This document shows, piece after piece, positions 4,935 to 13,784 of a DNA stretch of 64,000 nucleotides. The stretch is taken from contig NZ_AULP01000001.1 of NCBI RefSeq assembly GCF_000422345.1, forward strand, positions 310,001 to 374,000, written 5' to 3'. Positions within the stretch are counted from its first letter, which is position 1. Each line of letters opens with the position of its first letter. The notes under the pieces were generated by a model that was not told the origin of the DNA, ran no database searches, and saw nothing but the letters and a program-made list of their open reading frames with translations. Position numbers and translations under genes: made by a program. The stretch is from Neomelitea salexigens DSM 19753. GTDB taxonomy: Bacteria > Pseudomonadota > Gammaproteobacteria > Pseudomonadales > Spongiibacteraceae.

Positions 4935-4949
4935 ATGGCGGAGAAGGAG
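4935..4949. repeat. Left attachment-site repeat (copy of tRNA-Ser 3' end)
   Basis: The 15-base sequence ATGGCGGAGAAGGAG is identical to positions 13691-13705, where it is the 3' end of tRNA-Ser(GCT) including the encoded CCA and part of the acceptor and T arm. The two copies bound the integrase-bearing segment, as expected for site-specific integration into a tRNA gene. The exact crossover point within the repeat cannot be seen. Confidence 0.8.
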
Positions 4950-5039: not shown

Positions 5040-5069
5040 TTGTTAAGATTTCGTACAAATGCATATAAT
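5040..5069 (+). promoter_or_regulatory. Putative sigma-70 promoter of the integrase gene
   Basis: TTGTTA (5040-5045) and a consensus TATAAT (5064-5069) are separated by 18 bases and lie 40 bases ahead of the integrase start. The promoter abuts the TGGCGCAAGG repeat at 5071, a likely integrase arm site, so the integrase may repress its own transcription. Confidence 0.55.
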
Positions 5070-5070
5070 T

Positions 5071-5090
5071 TGGCGCAAGGATTGGCACAA
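5071..5090 (+). repeat. Putative integrase arm-type site, left
   Basis: TGGCGCAAGGATTGGCACAA contains two TGGCRC-type half sites 12 bases apart. A matching 20-mer (16 of 20 identical, same orientation) lies just inside the right end at 13617-13636. Paired repeats inside both ends are typical of arm-type binding sites for tyrosine integrases. Confidence 0.5.
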
Positions 5091-5108
5091 TATTATTCTG
5101 GCGGAGAT

Positions 5109-6395
5109 ATGCCTAAACCCCACCCCAAAGAAAAGCTCAAAGACCTACAGTTAAAAAGGCTGACTAAGCCGGGCACTTATGCCGATGGACGCGGCCTTTA
5201 CTTCAACGTAGACCCTGGAGGTAGCCGCAGTTGGGTTTTCCGGTATATGTTGGACGGGCGTCGCCGGAAGATGGGACTGGGCAGTTATCCAGAAGTCTCG
5301 TTGGCTGAGGCGCGCGAGCATCTGGCCTACTGGCGCAAAATATTAAAGGGCAACTCAACTACCCCACCTCGTGACCCACTGGACCTAAAACGCGAAAAAG
5401 AGGCAGAGGCACGCAAGAACAAGCGTCAACTGGTTACCTTTGACCAAGTGGCAGAAAAGTTTATAAACGCCAATCGCTCAGCATGGTCTAATCCAAAACA
5501 TGCTCAACAATGGGAGCGCACACTAGCGCAATACGCCAGCCCTATTATTGGCAATCGCCATATTGCCGACATAGACACAGACGATATTCTTCAGGTTCTG
5601 GAGCCTATTTGGACAACCAAAACCGAAACCGCTACTAGGGTGCGAGGGCGGATAGAAAAGGTTATTGATTACGCCAGAGCAAGAAAGCTACGAACAGAAG
5701 AGAACCCCGCACGGTGGCGCGGACACTTGGACGCTTTACTGGCAAAGCCATCTAAGGTCGCGAGAGCCGAGAACTTCCCCAGCCTGCCCTACCAGAGAAT
5801 AGGAGCTTTTATATCGGCGCTACGGGAATCAAACAGCATATCAGCCCTAACCCTTGAGTTCTTAATACTGACCAACACCCGCACGGGGGATGTGCTAGAG
5901 GCCGACTGGAGTGAAATTGACCTCAATACCGAGCTATGGACGATCCCAGAGTATCGACTCAAGACTCGGAAGGAGCATATTGTCCCGTTGTCTGACCGAG
6001 CCATAGAAATCCTTACCAGCCTTGAAAATAAAAATGACAAAGGCCTGATCTTCCAAAGCCCACGCGGTGGCCAACTATCGAATATGGCCATGCTCAAACT
6101 GATAAAGAGCATGGACAATGAGAAAACACCTTGGCGCGCACCTGATGGCCGTGTAGTCACTCCACATGGCTTCCGCACTACTTTCCGCACTTGGGCTGGT
6201 GAATGCACAGCATACCCCCGAGATTTGATCGAATTTGCTATGGCCCATCAGCTCAAGGACAAAGCAGAGGCTGCTTACCACCGCTCCACACTGCCCGAGA
6301 AACGCCGCAAACTGATGCAAGACTGGGCAAACCGAATTGGGCAGCCTGAGGCCCAACAGGGCGAGGTGATACCAATTAGAGACGTACTTGCCTAA
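5109..6395 (+). CDS. Tyrosine-type site-specific integrase (P4-like, DUF4102 N-terminus)
   Basis: A 428-residue integrase expected to recombine the element with the tRNA-Ser gene. The N-terminal DUF4102 domain (LTKPGTYADGRGLYFNVDPGG, about residues 14-90) is followed by a SAM-like core-binding domain (about 110-210) and the catalytic domain. Active-site residues visible are Arg in TNTRTGD (about 258), HGFR (about 352-355) and the Tyr in AAYHRS (about 390). I chose ATG 5109 because it has a GGAG site a few bases upstream and matches the usual start of this family. An upstream in-frame start at 5040 would add 23 residues encoded by the promoter and arm-site DNA. Confidence 0.93.
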   Translation: MPKPHPKEKLKDLQLKRLTKPGTYADGRGLYFNVDPGGSRSWVFRYMLDGRRRKMGLGSYPEVSLAEAREHLAYWRKILKGNSTTPPRDPLDLKREKEAEARKNKRQLVTFDQVAEKFINANRSAWSNPKHAQQWERTLAQYASPIIGNRHIADIDTDDILQVLEPIWTTKTETATRVRGRIEKVIDYARARKLRTEENPARWRGHLDALLAKPSKVARAENFPSLPYQRIGAFISALRESNSISALTLEFLILTNTRTGDVLEADWSEIDLNTELWTIPEYRLKTRKEHIVPLSDRAIEILTSLENKNDKGLIFQSPRGGQLSNMAMLKLIKSMDNEKTPWRAPDGRVVTPHGFRTTFRTWAGECTAYPRDLIEFAMAHQLKDKAEAAYHRSTLPEKRRKLMQDWANRIGQPEAQQGEVIPIRDVLA

Positions 6396-8032: not shown

Positions 8033-8371
8033 ATGAAAAAAGGCCACTCTCCTAAGAAAGCAGCCTCAACAACAGTGCCGTCTAATTGTAACTCCTACGC
8101 CGCCCAGCGCCAACGCATGATAGAAGCATTACGGACAGTACCTGGCGGAATCACCACCCTTGAGTTCCGTGAGCAATACGACGTGATGGCACCCGCACCC
8201 AGGGTGTTTGAGCTACGTCACGACTATGGCCACAACATCCAAAAAGAAATGGTCAGAGGCGTCAATGCACAAGGAAACAGGCATCGCACAGCGTTGTACA
8301 CTCTTCACTCCGGCCCATGGAAGCGGCCGATCAAGAAGAATAAAAGCAAAGGAGGTACGAGCAATGAATGA
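8033..8371 (+). CDS. Small helix-turn-helix protein
   Basis: A 112-residue basic protein. The segment from about residue 25 to 70 (RQRMIEALRTVPGGITTLEFREQYDV, then PRVFELRHDYGH) fits a winged HTH of the kind found in small island and phage proteins that act beside replication genes. The ATG at 8033 starts one base after the upstream stop and has a GGAGG site, so it is translationally linked to the AlpA-like gene. Its stop overlaps the start of the Toprim gene by 8 bases. DNA binding is inferred from the pattern only. Confidence 0.65.
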   Translation: MKKGHSPKKAASTTVPSNCNSYAAQRQRMIEALRTVPGGITTLEFREQYDVMAPAPRVFELRHDYGHNIQKEMVRGVNAQGNRHRTALYTLHSGPWKRPIKKNKSKGGTSNE

Positions 8372-9212
8372 TATATACCGTGACCTCCAACAAGGTTTTT
8401 ACAATGCGGGACTCGAGCCACCCCGCCACATTGAAATTGACGGAAAGGTCCACCGCTATGCCCAACCTGATAAGCCTAAATCCCATTCAAGTTGGTACGT
8501 CTTCTTTGGATCTCCGAACGGAGTAGCCGGTGTAGTAGGCGACTGGCGCACGGGGCAGAGCCTTAACGTATCTACGTGGCTCGACAACAAGCTAACTCAA
8601 GCCGACATTGAAGCGAGCAAGGCGATGATGGCAGAGGCCCGAGAACGCGCTAAGAAGGCCAGAAAAGCCGAGCAGCACGCCGCCGCACGGCGAGCGCAAG
8701 TAATCTGGAATAACTCCCACCCCGCCGCCCCCGGTCACCCCTACCTAACTAGCAAGTGCATTGGGCCTTGCGGTTTGCGTGAAACTGCTGGCAACTTGAT
8801 TGTGCCGGTAACTGACATTGATGGTGTGTTGTGGTCAATCCAGACAATCAGCTCCCGTGGTGAAAAGCGCTTCCTGTCTGGTGGCCGCATCAAAGGCTGC
8901 ATGTATTGGGTTGAGGGCAGAAGCAAAGGCCCAATATATGTTGCAGAAGGCCTTGCCACCGCCGCCAGTGTGAGGGCTTATACAGGCCGAACCACTGCAT
9001 GTGCATTTAACGCTGGAAACCTCCCTGCAGTTACGATGAAAATCAAGGAGAAGCACCCAAACATCCAGCTAATCGTGGTTGCCGATAATGACGCGGCTGG
9101 AATCAAAGCTGCTAGACAGGCTTCCGCTTTGACTGGTGCCGACCTGTGGTGCCCTCCCACTCCTGGTACTGACTTTAATGACTGGGTCAATGCACGCGGG
9201 GTATCTGTATGA
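8364..9212 (+). CDS. Toprim-domain protein, primase-like
   Basis: A 282-residue protein with a C-terminal Toprim fold. The conserved Glu is in YVAEGLATAASV (about residue 195) and the acidic DxD-type motif is in VVADNDAAG (about 235). The N-terminal part carries WYVFFGSPNG and VGDWRTG motifs seen in Toprim proteins of islands and plasmids, followed by a basic helix (about 90-115). No zinc-binding CxxC ribbon is visible, so it is shorter than full phage primases such as P4 alpha. The true start is ATG 8364 with GGAGG at 8350-8354; an upstream in-frame extension would overlap the HTH gene. The stop overlaps the next start (ATGA), so the two are coupled. Confidence 0.82.
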   Translation: MNDIYRDLQQGFYNAGLEPPRHIEIDGKVHRYAQPDKPKSHSSWYVFFGSPNGVAGVVGDWRTGQSLNVSTWLDNKLTQADIEASKAMMAEARERAKKARKAEQHAAARRAQVIWNNSHPAAPGHPYLTSKCIGPCGLRETAGNLIVPVTDIDGVLWSIQTISSRGEKRFLSGGRIKGCMYWVEGRSKGPIYVAEGLATAASVRAYTGRTTACAFNAGNLPAVTMKIKEKHPNIQLIVVADNDAAGIKAARQASALTGADLWCPPTPGTDFNDWVNARGVSV

Positions 9213-10825
9213 ATGAACTACTACAGATAACCGCAGGCGTTGCGGGAGCTGCGGATTTGCGGACCAACTCGGAAAAACCTGATTTGCAAAGCTTTCCGAA
9301 TAAGAAGGACTTGCGGACGGCTTGCGGAAAGAGTGCGGGAAACGCTAATGGCCGCCCTTTGCCTATGCTCAAACCCATTCCTCTGCCGGAAAAACCACAG
9401 GCAATCACCTATCCGGTTGGAGCATTAGGCCCAATACTAGGAAATGCCGCAAAAGCTCTTGCTTATCACGTGCAAGTACCTCTCGGAATTGCTTGTCAGT
9501 CAGTTCTTGCCGCCTCTTCGCTCGTTGCTCAACAGCACGTTGACGTGGCGAGAGGCAAGATAAGCACTGGCCCAGTGTCGTTATATTGTCTATCCGTTGC
9601 CGAAAGCGGTGATCGCAAGAGCGCAACCGACAAACTGGCGCTCAAACCAATCAGAGGTTTTGAAGCAAGGCGCCGAGAAGAGCTTAACTCTGAATGGAGC
9701 CGCTACCGCTCAAACCTGCTCGCGTGGGAGATGCGTCTCAACTCAGTCAAACAATCATTCAAGCCTAATGGCAAACACAAGGCCATGAGCGAAAGCGACG
9801 AGCAACGCCTCGCTAGCGCACTCTTAGAGCTTGAGTCAGAAAAGCCGACCCCGCCACCAAGGGCAAGCATCACCTTCACAGAACCCACCCCAGAGGCGAT
9901 ATGGCGCCATTATCAGCAAGGCGTTCCAAGCGCTGGCTTATTCTCTGATGAGGCGGTGAGCTTCTTTAACGGCCACGGCATGAGCGCCGACGCAAAAGGC
10001 CGAATGATCGGCAGCTTGTCTCAGTTGTGGGACGGCAGTACCTTACAGCGCACTCGCGCAGCAGAGGGTGAATCTGGAGAAATGGATAATCGCCGTCTTT
10101 CAGCACACCTCATGGTACAACCCGTCGTCAGCGCTGAAGTATTGTCCGACCCTCTATTACTTGGGCAGGGCTTTATCGCACGCTTTCTGGTATGCCATGA
10201 GGACAGCATCGCCGGTACTCGCTTTCTCAAAGATCGTAATCCAGAAATCGGGGCTGATAACGATCCAGCTATTAATGCTTATTGGGATCGACTATCTGAG
10301 TTGCTTGCTATCCCGCTAAAGACAAACGAGGAAACCGGTGGGCTTGAACTGCACACCCTCAAGATTACCGGAGAGGCCTATCAATATTGGGAAGCATTGC
10401 ATGACGGTATCGAAAAGCACCTTGTACCAGGGGGCAGCTTTGTCGACATTAAAGCCTTCGCCTCTAAAGCCGCCGAGAATGCCGCACGCATGGCTGCTGT
10501 CATGGCATTTGTTGAAGGTGAGGAAATCACAGCATGCCATATTCAGCGCGCCGGCGAGCTGGTTTCCTACTACCTTAGCTCCATGGCAATCCGCACAGGG
10601 GAAGCCGCCAATGACCTTGCAGACGTGCAAGCCCGCGAATTGCTTGAATGGATCAAACAGCATGGAGGCAAGCTGGAGGCAGCTCAATTTAAGCGCCTGC
10701 CAAGTGCGTACCGAAAGTCGAGTATAGCCAGGGCAATACTCGAACGATTGCGGCTAGACGGCCACCTAACCGCTGAACTTGGCACTGGCGGTAAAGCAAT
10801 AAGCTGGGAGGTAATCGAATGCTAG
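9209..10825 (+). CDS. DUF3987 (YfjI-type) protein of the island replication module
   Basis: A 538-residue protein of the DUF3987 family, usually found next to Toprim/primase genes in islands and prophages and thought to act in their replication. A degenerate P-loop-like motif (AESGDRKS, about residue 133) follows a hydrophobic segment typical of the family (QVPLGIACQSVLAASSLVAQ). The rest is mostly helical with a conserved LFSDEA segment. The first 50 residues are low complexity and are encoded by the TTGCGGA repeat cluster, so the DNA there may be conserved for its own sake. The start overlaps the Toprim stop and the stop overlaps the next gene by 7 bases. No complete helicase motif set is evident, so helicase activity is not claimed. 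Confidence 0.8.
   Translation: MNELLQITAGVAGAADLRTNSEKPDLQSFPNKKDLRTACGKSAGNANGRPLPMLKPIPLPEKPQAITYPVGALGPILGNAAKALAYHVQVPLGIACQSVLAASSLVAQQHVDVARGKISTGPVSLYCLSVAESGDRKSATDKLALKPIRGFEARRREELNSEWSRYRSNLLAWEMRLNSVKQSFKPNGKHKAMSESDEQRLASALLELESEKPTPPPRASITFTEPTPEAIWRHYQQGVPSAGLFSDEAVSFFNGHGMSADAKGRMIGSLSQLWDGSTLQRTRAAEGESGEMDNRRLSAHLMVQPVVSAEVLSDPLLLGQGFIARFLVCHEDSIAGTRFLKDRNPEIGADNDPAINAYWDRLSELLAIPLKTNEETGGLELHTLKITGEAYQYWEALHDGIEKHLVPGGSFVDIKAFASKAAENAARMAAVMAFVEGEEITACHIQRAGELVSYYLSSMAIRTGEAANDLADVQARELLEWIKQHGGKLEAAQFKRLPSAYRKSSIARAILERLRLDGHLTAELGTGGKAISWEVIEC
9240..9339 (+). repeat. Iteron-like cluster A (six TTGCGGA-type repeats)
   Basis: Two triplets of the heptamer TTGCGGA and close variants lie at 9240, 9249, 9257 and at 9311, 9322, 9333. 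The second triplet is spaced at exactly 11 bases, one helical turn. Between the triplets is an inverted repeat, TCGGAAA (9269-9275) and TTTCCGA (9293-9299). All six heptamers point the same way. The cluster lies inside the 5' end of the DUF3987 gene. Confidence 0.6.
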
Positions 10826-11247
10826 ACCTGATTGCCGAAGGGATAGCCCTCCGAAACAATCCGCCGAACTTGCCGGGGGTGAAACATCCGCAATTCTCCG
10901 CAAAAACCCGCAGTAATGAGCATATGAAACAGGCTCAATCAAACCCTCATTATACGCTGCCGCCAGAGGTGACTGACCACAAAACCCGCAATTCCGCAAA
11001 ATCCGCAATACCTCCTACTTTTGAATTAAGCATAGAAGCGCTCAATCTTAGAGGTATAGAGATCACACCCGATGACCTGGCTTTCCTGCGCCAACGTCTA
11101 CCACTAACCCCAGACAAGCGCGATGTCCTACTCGATCAGTACATAGAAATATGGCAGCGAGCAATGCAGGGTGAGTGCGCACCACACCGAAAGCAAAACA
11201 AAGGTCGATTTGCAGCTAATACATGGCTTAGAGAACGGAACCGTTAA
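10819..11247 (+). CDS. Small unrecognised island protein
   Basis: A 142-residue protein starting inside the end of the DUF3987 gene (7-base overlap). I do not recognise a named family. The first 65 residues are disordered-looking and encoded by the second repeat cluster. The C-terminal half (ELSIEALNLRGIEITPDDLAFL, DQYIEIWQRAM, NKGRFAANTWLRE) is well-formed and helical and is probably the functional part. An internal ATG at 10924 could be a shorter start. Its place after the DUF3987 gene suggests a replication-accessory role, but this is inference. Confidence 0.6.
   Translation: MLDLIAEGIALRNNPPNLPGVKHPQFSAKTRSNEHMKQAQSNPHYTLPPEVTDHKTRNSAKSAIPPTFELSIEALNLRGIEITPDDLAFLRQRLPLTPDKRDVLLDQYIEIWQRAMQGECAPHRKQNKGRFAANTWLRERNR
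10887..11008 (-). repeat. Iteron-like cluster B (six TCCGCAA-type repeats)
   Basis: Two triplets of TCCGCAA and variants lie at 10887, 10897, 10907 (10-base spacing) and at 10985, 10993, 11002. Between them is an inverted repeat, TAATGAG (10914-10920) and CTCATTA (10946-10952). The heptamer is the reverse complement of the cluster A unit, so the two clusters face each other across the DUF3987 gene and share the plan triplet, inverted repeat, triplet. Confidence 0.6.
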
Positions 11248-11971: not shown

Positions 11972-12129
11972 ATGAAAATTGTCACATGGAACTGTAACGG
12001 CGCATTCAGGAAGAAATACCACGCGCTAGAGCCAATGGACGCAGACATCCTTGTCATTCAGGAGTGTGAAGACCCTGCCCAATCAACCAAAGCCTATCGA
12101 GAATGGGCCGGCGACTACCTTTGGCTTGG
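11972..12129 (+). repeat. Near-identical 5' block shared by the two EEP genes, copy 1
   Basis: The first 158 bases of the gene match 12727-12884 with four mismatches by eye (two in codon 4, one each in codons 26 and 35). Beyond this the two genes diverge strongly. This abrupt change points to recent gene conversion or partial duplication. Confidence 0.85.
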
Positions 12130-12718
12130 AGAATCAAAAAATAAGGGCATCGGAGTTTTTCCGCGCAAAGGCAACACCGCTCAAGGATTGGACTGGCAGG
12201 GAGAATTTACAGTTCCCGGCCTAAGAAGCCGCAGCCGCAGTATAACGTGGCGCACAGAAGATCTACGTTTATTTCTACCATTCACCATAAACCACAGCAC
12301 CACTGCCCTGGCTGTATGGACAAAAGGTAAGGAAGACCATGTTTTCGGCTATATGGGGCAATTTTGGAAATACCTGCAAATCCATCACGCTGAGCTAGCC
12401 AACGATCACACTATGGTTATTGGCGATTTCAATAGCAACGTACAGTGGGACAAGCCAGACCGTTGGTGGAGCCACTCCGACACCGTAGCGGAGCTAGAGG
12501 AACTCGGGCTCCGCAGCCTTTACCATTACCGCACCGGCGAGGACCCTGGAAAAGAGTCTAAACCAACTTTGTTCCATCAGCGCAAACAAGAAAAGCCCTA
12601 CCATATTGACTATGTCTTCCTGTCGGACGACCTACTTCATTCGGCTAGCATTGAAGTGGGCGATTATAAAGACTGGATAGCTCTAAGTGACCATACGCCC
12701 TTAATCACTAGGTTTTGA
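11972..12718 (+). CDS. Endonuclease/exonuclease/phosphatase (EEP) family protein, copy 1
   Basis: A 248-residue member of the EEP superfamily (ExoIII/DNase I fold). The metal and catalytic residues expected for the fold are visible: Asn in TWNCNGA (about residue 7), Glu in VIQECE (about 31), Asp/Asn in GDFNSN (about 151-154) and the terminal SDHTPL (about 241). No signal peptide, so it acts in the cytoplasm. Substrate may be DNA, RNA or a small phosphoester. The start is ATG 11972. The first 158 bases are nearly identical to the next gene. Its position at the cargo end of the island suggests an accessory function such as phage defence, which is inference. Confidence 0.85.
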   Translation: MKIVTWNCNGAFRKKYHALEPMDADILVIQECEDPAQSTKAYREWAGDYLWLGESKNKGIGVFPRKGNTAQGLDWQGEFTVPGLRSRSRSITWRTEDLRLFLPFTINHSTTALAVWTKGKEDHVFGYMGQFWKYLQIHHAELANDHTMVIGDFNSNVQWDKPDRWWSHSDTVAELEELGLRSLYHYRTGEDPGKESKPTLFHQRKQEKPYHIDYVFLSDDLLHSASIEVGDYKDWIALSDHTPLITRF

Positions 12719-12726
12719 ACCCAGAA

Positions 12727-12884
12727 ATGAAAATTATTACATGGAACTGTAACGGCGCATTCAGGAAGAAATACCACGCGCTAGAGCCAATGGACGCAGA
12801 CGTCCTTGTCATTCAGGAGTGTGAAGACCCAGCCCAATCAACCAAAGCCTATCGAGAATGGGCCGGCGACTACCTTTGGCTTGG
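12727..12884 (+). repeat. Near-identical 5' block shared by the two EEP genes, copy 2
   Basis: Partner of the block at 11972-12129. Direct orientation, centre-to-centre distance 755 bases. Confidence 0.85.
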
Positions 12885-13425
12885 CCAATCCAAAAATAAG
12901 GGGATAGGAATTTTTGCAAAAGGCTCGACCAAGATAGCAAAACTTGATTGGAGTGATGAAGGGCTAGAACTCTTTTTGCCATGCCGTATCAACGATTCCT
13001 TCAATTTGGTTGGCATTTGGACAAAAAACCCTGGGCCTAGAAAATTTCGCTACATAGGTCAGCTGTGGCAATACTTGCAAATACATAAAAGAAAAATTGG
13101 CTCAGACCGGATAATTCTATGCGGTGATCTGAATAGCAATGCTGCCTGGGACAAAAAGCACTCTGGCTGTAGCCATAGTGACGTTGTTACAGATCTAAGC
13201 AAATTAAGTATCGAGAGCATCTACCACCGGTTGACAATGGAAGATCATGGCCTAGAAAAAACGGCCACACAGTACATGTACCGCAATGAACAAAAGTCTT
13301 ACCACATAGACTACGCGTATATTTCGGAGGCATTACTGCAAGACCCGCATATAGAGATAGGTAAATACGAAAACTGGATAGACCTAAGCGACCATATGCC
13401 ATTGGTAGTTAGTTTGAAAACCTGA
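12727..13425 (+). CDS. Endonuclease/exonuclease/phosphatase (EEP) family protein, copy 2
   Basis: A 232-residue tandem paralogue of the preceding gene, beginning 8 bases after its stop. It keeps the same active-site set: TWNCNGA, VIQECE, GDLNSN and SDHMPL. The region after residue 53 is shorter and clearly different from copy 1, including loss of a segment around residues 68-85 of copy 1. I chose ATG 12727 because it matches the start of copy 1; a TTG at 12715 would add four residues and overlap the upstream stop. Both copies appear intact, so they may act on different substrates or as a heteromer. Confidence 0.82.
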   Translation: MKIITWNCNGAFRKKYHALEPMDADVLVIQECEDPAQSTKAYREWAGDYLWLGQSKNKGIGIFAKGSTKIAKLDWSDEGLELFLPCRINDSFNLVGIWTKNPGPRKFRYIGQLWQYLQIHKRKIGSDRIILCGDLNSNAAWDKKHSGCSHSDVVTDLSKLSIESIYHRLTMEDHGLEKTATQYMYRNEQKSYHIDYAYISEALLQDPHIEIGKYENWIDLSDHMPLVVSLKT

Positions 13426-13690: not shown

Positions 13691-13705
13691 ATGGCGGAGA
13701 AGGAG
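13691..13705. repeat. Right attachment-site repeat (within tRNA-Ser 3' end)
   Basis: Identical to 4935-4949. This copy is part of the intact tRNA gene, so integration restored the tRNA. Confidence 0.8.
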
Positions 13706-13784
13706 GGATTCGAACCCTCGATGAAGCTATTAACCCCATACTCCCTTAGCAGGGGAGCGCCTTCAGCCACTCGGCCACCTCTCC
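13692..13784 (-). tRNA. tRNA-Ser (anticodon GCT)
   Basis: A 93-nt type II tRNA. The acceptor stem GGAGAGG pairs with CTTCTCC, the discriminator is G and CCA is encoded. The anticodon stem CTCCC/GGGAG encloses the loop CTGCTAA, giving anticodon GCT for AGC/AGU serine codons. A long variable arm (TATGGGGTTAATAGCTTCAT) and T loop GGTTCGAATCC are present. It follows csrA as in many gammaproteobacteria and is the integration target of the 8.8-kb element. Confidence 0.96.

Follow-up and report, generated by a model that had tools for sequence, protein, structure and literature searches.

We analysed a 64,000-nucleotide stretch of the Neomelitea salexigens DSM 19753 genome (the window; positions are counted from its first letter). 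It contains an island of about 8.8 kb delimited by two copies of a 15-bp repeat (4935-4949 and 13691-13705), with the following features:

4935-4949, + strand: att direct repeat at the left end of the island (15 bp; the second copy is at 13691-13705)
5040-6395, + strand: tyrosine integrase (Phage_integrase, Arm-DNA-bind_3; searched from 5109, start codon uncertain)
8033-8371, + strand: HTH_39 small winged-helix protein (PF14090, E 3.9e-12; searched as a frame, start codon not fixed)
8364-9212, + strand: Toprim (DnaG-like) primase (PF13362; phrog_2249, DNA primase)
9209-10825, + strand: predicted DUF3987 MCM-like helicase (PF13148, E 2.3e-79; structure model; Foldseek matches to MCM)
10819-11247, + strand: ORF of 142 amino acids, which hosts arm B in its N-terminal half (phrog_852, E 7e-9)
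13691-13705, + strand: att direct repeat at the right end of the island, overlapping the 3' end of tRNA-Ser(gct)
13692-13784, - strand: tRNA-Ser(gct), its 3' end overlapping the right att repeat

Neither Pfam (ten ORFs) nor PADLOC (five ORFs) named a phage induction, interference or packaging gene. PADLOC gave no match for the five island ORFs, and NCBIfam returned for six ORFs a single unrelated match, far under its cut-off. A distant blastn search against plasmids found no match, and tblastn against phages found two weak ones. Two tandem genes of the endonuclease/exonuclease/phosphatase family lie at 11972-13425; they are 53% identical overall and nearly identical over their first 60 residues, which suggests a recent duplication or partial conversion. 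The AT-richest 100 bp of the island are at its left end (4975, 0.71).

The structure model of the window's DUF3987 protein (pLDDT 84.8, pTM 0.80) shows the two elements of an MCM-like helicase, an MCM-type AAA+ core and a C-terminal winged helix, the latter at residues about 470-538. Its top Foldseek matches in the PDB are replisome/MCM chains; the best has an E value of 5e-4 and is the sole one of 236 below 0.001. The sequence profile matches MCM weakly (E 0.099). The protein is predicted from the model to be an MCM-like AAA+ core carrying a C-terminal winged helix. The model of the 142-aa ORF has a mean pLDDT of 70.4, falling below 50 across much of residues 19-46, with a low-confidence N-terminal half and a helical C-terminal half. 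The N-terminal half, where arm B sits, is probably disordered.

Twelve cores of the sequence TGCGG surround the DUF3987 gene as four triplets. Six face right and form arm A at the start of that gene; six face left and form arm B inside the 142-aa ORF:

9240-9263, + strand: arm A outer triplet, spacing 9,8 (cores start at 9241, 9250 and 9258)
9311-9339, + strand: arm A inner triplet, spacing 11,11 (cores start at 9312, 9323 and 9334)
10887-10913, - strand: arm B inner triplet, spacing 10,10 (cores start at 10888, 10898 and 10908)
10985-11008, - strand: arm B outer triplet, spacing 8,9 (cores start at 10986, 10994 and 11003)

Listing the TGCGG cores confirmed the coordinates, the four triplets and the opposed orientation of the two clusters given by the original prediction. 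That prediction described the units as twelve copies of TTGCGGA. All twelve share TGCGG, but only nine read TTGCGG and seven are exact TTGCGGA. It also expected the heptamer to be less common elsewhere in the window; TTGCGGA occurs 16 times across the 64 kb against 13.09 expected, and 26 of 100 shuffles reach 16, so there is no enrichment. The unusual feature is the clustering of TGCGG, not the abundance of the heptamer. Nowhere else in the window do 120 bp contain as many same-strand TGCGG cores as in the two arms, which have six on each strand against at best two elsewhere. A TGCGG-triplet pattern run over the 3.44-Mb genome gave five matches, namely the four arm triplets and one simple 6-bp tandem repeat; the same pattern read backwards, used as control, gave two.

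Two further details of the prediction survive in part. The 7-bp inverted repeats said to be enclosed by the triplets are present (TCGGAAA in the gap of arm A, TAATGAG in that of arm B) but find no support as a conserved part. Base shuffles of the gaps attain a 7-bp inverted repeat in 11 of 500 cases (A) and 25 of 500 (B), and the corresponding gaps of a sister island (L002) hold inverted repeats of just 5 and 4 bp, so these elements probably lie outside the system. The proposal that the sites fall on one side of the helix suits the triplets spaced by 10-11 bp but not those spaced by 8-9 bp, by simple arithmetic with a 10.5-bp turn. The arms stand 1.5 kb apart and have AT fractions of 0.57 and 0.54, where the island as a whole averages 0.50.

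DUF3987 loci were surveyed with a motif-blind scan for hexamers recurring every 8-12 bp, using a score cut-off of 7. The cut-off was reached in 83 of 138 loci, a count that takes in duplicates and the window's own copies, and in none of the control segments from the window's own genome (0 of 50 of 5 kb, 0 of 25 of 10 kb). Among the 55 loci below 7, some have short flanks and others may lack arms. Removal of loci at least 90% identical left 67 of the 83. Both orientations are present in 60 of these 67, and 62 of the 65 non-redundant triplet-bearing loci have a triplet no more than 300 bp from the DUF3987 ORF end. The commonest triplet spacings are 9,9, 8,9, 9,8, 11,10 and 10,11. Gaps between chains on the same strand (n = 53) measure 33-34 bp in 25 cases, 44-46 bp in four and 54-55 bp in five, the longer classes being about one and two helical turns beyond the first. 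The AT fraction between adjacent arms ranges from 0.17 to 0.74 in the relatives, with no consistent AT-rich region.

The repeat letters differ among islands, while spacing and opposition are kept. Conservation in related islands, which the original prediction called for, thus applies to the architecture; the letters change, and they do so in concert in both clusters. The sister locus L002, from the same genus and with a DUF3987 protein 75% identical, has its arms in equivalent positions and reads TGGCGGA/TCCGCCA where the window has TTGCGGA, and the Zhongshania locus L010 has the same sites as L002. More generally, when the hexamer of a triplet on one strand was sought as a chain on the opposite strand, it turned up within the same locus in 45 of 65 cases and in foreign loci in 170 of 4054 tests. 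Locus L003, which retains only the 3' part of DUF3987, has kept the B side and lost arm A.

Several loci depart from the common arrangement. In L003 (838-2274) the 3' half of DUF3987 follows, in frame, an N-terminal segment of membrane-like appearance on visual inspection. One element, L015 (1663-8602), carries duplicated arms, two A and two B, with equal spacing. L126 has nine GGCGGA sites (at most one mismatch) in exact 8-bp steps downstream of DUF3987, with no triplets. In the Legionella-like L018 and L020 the order of the arms appears inverted and they point outward, each close to the DUF3987 end or beyond it. Beside DUF927 helicases (L149-L168, the G706 family), the same triplet grammar was seen in 12 of 20 loci taken from 36 matches, with different motifs (GTGTCC, GGGAAC, TGTAAC, GGCAAC). 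Single-protein viral scans with L034 and L030 as queries found no relatives, the family search around G200 returned the known locus only, and that around G041 returned three known places again and nothing further.

We propose that the two clusters are, with good probability, half-sites of a replication origin read by the C-terminal winged helix of the DUF3987 helicase. The main difficulty for one joint origin is the kilobase separation of the arms in some islands: opposed arms are more than 1 kb apart in 7 of the 60 loci, the window among them, and up to 5 kb apart at the extreme. Each cluster could then be a complete loading or control site, for example an origin accompanied by a copy-control or handcuffing site, and not half of an origin. 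The two copies of each arm in L015 also suit such an arrangement, as does the example of P4, which uses an ori and a second, distant cis region. We nevertheless consider complete sites unlikely, given that the opposed arms lie no more than 100 bp apart in 47 of the 60 loci, as fits one joint origin.

The reading of the arms as half-sites of one origin, bound by DUF3987, draws further support from covariation between the motif and the protein. Motif bases were numbered from the G of the invariant GC (0), and bases -2, -1, +2, +3 and +4 were ranked by excess mutual information over 437 columns. Motifs fitting [TG]GC[GT], 63 of 83, were scorable; the other 20 were not scored. This gave 51 non-redundant loci, 50 of them with an aligned winged helix. 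For base -1 the first column is that of S499, although it is only tenth by z-score: G goes with Arg in 12 of 13 loci and T with Arg in 4 of 34. For base +2 it is the R496 column, which could be that of K495 with one loop gap placed otherwise: G occurs with Arg or Lys in 34 of 36 loci, and T (n = 14) with Gln in 11, Thr in one and Arg in two. For base +4 it is the A492 column, in which C is accompanied by Arg in 21 of 21 loci and the other bases in 1 of 29. The first two columns for base +3 are also in the winged helix, but because columns of the DUF3987 body follow closely this base was left unused. The best column for base -2 is in the body, outside the winged helix.

The associations persist when common descent is considered. 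On a tree that covers 48 of the 51 loci and was built from 440 DUF3987 columns, of which 439 precede the winged-helix segment and one falls within it, base changes coincide with a residue change on the same branch in 8 of 9 cases (-1), 6 of 9 (+2) and 11 of 11 (+4). Each of these base-residue pairs heads a ranking of 1,873, the runner-up having four coincident changes. Closest disjoint pairs of loci that differ agree with the code in 8 of 9 (-1), 12 of 14 (+2) and 18 of 19 (+4) comparisons. The exceptions are L024, L026, L037, L071 and L096 at -1, L011, L020, L096 and L126 at +2, and L012 at +4. The four cases of Arg with T at -1 (L024, L026, L037 and L096) all bear an AP[IS]RAL insertion; three of these four read GTGC, as do L029 and L099, which have no insertion. 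Among the unscored loci, L004 and L008 (TGTGCAA paired with Ser, GGTGCAA paired with Arg) follow the code in kind, while L101, which combines Lys with GCTATT, and L051, which combines Arg with TGACTA, seem to go against it.

The rules for -1 and +2 were fixed before L061 and later loci were fetched, and the held-out set comprised 18 non-redundant new loci. The -1 rule was obeyed in 14 of 16 (Fisher p 0.0076; two gaps set aside) and the +2 rule in 16 of 18 (p 0.0039). The +2 rule as written named K495 but was scored on the R496 column, in an alignment that had the new loci among its sequences. The +4 rule, found later and not written beforehand, was obeyed in 18 of 18. In line with the original prediction, the repeats very probably serve as iterons of an origin and are bound by DUF3987, with whose residues the motif covaries.

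The repeats might instead be operators or sites for another island protein, such as HTH_39, Toprim or another small regulator. The genes for the HTH_39 winged-helix protein and the Toprim protein lie upstream, and the arms overlap gene starts. Of the 50 scored loci, however, only 3 have an HTH_39 relative within the DNA fetched, and 30 have a Toprim relative there. In those 30 loci, one Toprim column exceeds the DUF3987 column in raw information on base -1 (0.394 versus 0.21), the two are level on +2 (0.317, 0.318), and DUF3987 leads on +4 (0.648 versus 0.537). On the tree for the same loci, the DUF3987 column ranks third of 2,478 at -1, where it coincides with all of the 4 changes (best Toprim column, two), and first at +4, where it coincides with 7 of 7 (best Toprim column, three); both proteins have columns with 2 of 5 at +2. 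The comparison is mixed overall, but on the tree DUF3987 columns beat all Toprim columns at -1 and +4 and tie at +2, which makes Toprim the less likely reader; a reader other than DUF3987 appears very improbable.

Packaging or excision sites, bound by a terminase or as integrase arm sites, are a still fainter prospect. The islands are mobile, and the A arms of L011, L014, L015 and L044 come directly after the integrase gene. Against this, the arms of the window are more than 2.6 kb from either att repeat, a triplet stays near the DUF3987 end in nearly all triplet-bearing loci, and the motif covaries with the helicase. Protein-level selection on a repetitive peptide, with the clusters as a by-product, is a reading that their coding location and a commonest spacing of 9 bp (three codons) might evoke; it is already contradicted by their frame-independent conservation: spacings of 8, 10 and 11 bp put the window's cores in all three frames of the host genes (offsets from 9209 counted by hand, arm B phases computed), host proteins differ among loci, and the arms are opposed. 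The repeats are kept when the host proteins change, in several reading frames; together with the covariation, this bears out the suggestion of selection on the DNA.

In the origin that we propose, the DUF3987 winged helix would bind each 7-bp repeat as one asymmetric site, with the columns of residues 492, 495/496 and 499 reading bases +4, +2 and -1. The code would pair Arg with C at +4, Arg or Lys with G and Gln with T at +2, and Arg with G at -1. The residues are spaced i, i+4, i+7 and their bases follow as +4, +2, -1, so the order of contacts may be colinear. Winged-helix binding would be followed by ring assembly of DUF3987, unwinding, and priming by the Toprim primase. Six sites per arm, in two triplets, would suit a single helicase hexamer as the loaded unit, and a pair of opposed arms would yield two helicases facing each other. 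The arms, their orientation and spacing and the covariation are properties of the sequences themselves; from them we infer binding, origin function, one hexamer per arm and a bidirectional start. The hexamer per arm and the two opposed helicases are suggested by the existence of some six-site arms, by the MCM-like fold and by the two hexamers described for SaPI (PMC7581432, in the part cited). Six per arm is not universal, because 59 of the 138 arms in the 67 non-redundant loci are single triplets and 29 are two-chain arms with six sites.

A more specific version, which we offer only tentatively, regards the arms as loading pads: six winged-helix sites would serve one MCM-like hexamer, opposed arms would produce a head-to-head pair, and residues i, i+4 (or i+3) and i+7 would set specificity. 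Spacings of 8-9 bp are close to 8.75 bp, or five sixths of a turn, leaving 60 degrees, the angle between hexamer subunits; spacings of 10-11 bp are in phase. Such pads would be a loader-free counterpart of the MCM double hexamer. With three residues setting specificity, one base change and one residue change could let islands drift into mutually compatible replicons.

The scarcely characterised DUF3987 helicase family is linked here to a probable origin. The residue-to-base code is testable and could allow sequence-based prediction of origins in many proteobacterial islands, and the islands may offer a simple natural system for MCM-like ring loading on DNA and for the diversification of replicon specificity. 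Because the same spacing grammar occurs beside DUF927 helicases, the rule may be general.

No DUF3987 iterons and no such residue-base code were found among the matches listed in the open-licence literature (titles and abstract starts). Kazlauskas et al. 2018 describe DUF3987 domains as predicted helicases that precede a winged-helix domain in primase fusions (PMC5862659); the cited part describes no binding site or origin for them. The original prediction likened the island to P4-type elements. The likeness extends to integration and to cis regions for the element's own replication protein, P4 alpha and its ori being named in the cited part of PMC6092414. It fails at the protein level: the P4 primase and helicase form a single protein, as the cited part of PMC7145576 states, whereas the Toprim and MCM-like DUF3987 proteins here are encoded by separate genes and no single alpha-type primase-helicase is present.

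SCCmec Cch2 is a hexamer-forming helicase whose C-terminal domain binds a three-iteron site (AAGTG iterons) downstream of its gene (PMC7581432). It resembles the present system in that binding, but belongs to a D5-like helicase family and, in the part cited, needs one short direct-repeat site, with no opposed arms.

The closest known kind is the origin of PICI and SaPI elements. There, too, the initiator helicase of a mobile element reads short iterons with its C-terminal domain, as described for SaPI Rep and Cch2 (PMC7581432, in the part cited), and two iteron sets lie near the rep 3' end. According to the cited part of PMC6092414, SaPI and Gram-negative PICI origins are 3' of rep, and E. coli PICI origins have an AT-rich region between two iteron sets. 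The islands studied here likewise have two sets of short iterons, as the two opposed arms. Arm B of the window is 3' of the DUF3987 gene and arm A is at its 5' end. Unlike in PICI and SaPI, arms can flank the helicase gene and sit in coding sequence. The region between the window's arms spans 1.5 kb and the relatives are mixed, with no consistent AT-rich core. The helicase is DUF3987, whereas that of SaPIbov1 is DUF927-related and that of SaPI5 is Primase_Cterm. Beside these known origins, what is new here is the matched base-residue code, the double-triplet spacing grammar, the coding location and the wide separation that the arms can reach.
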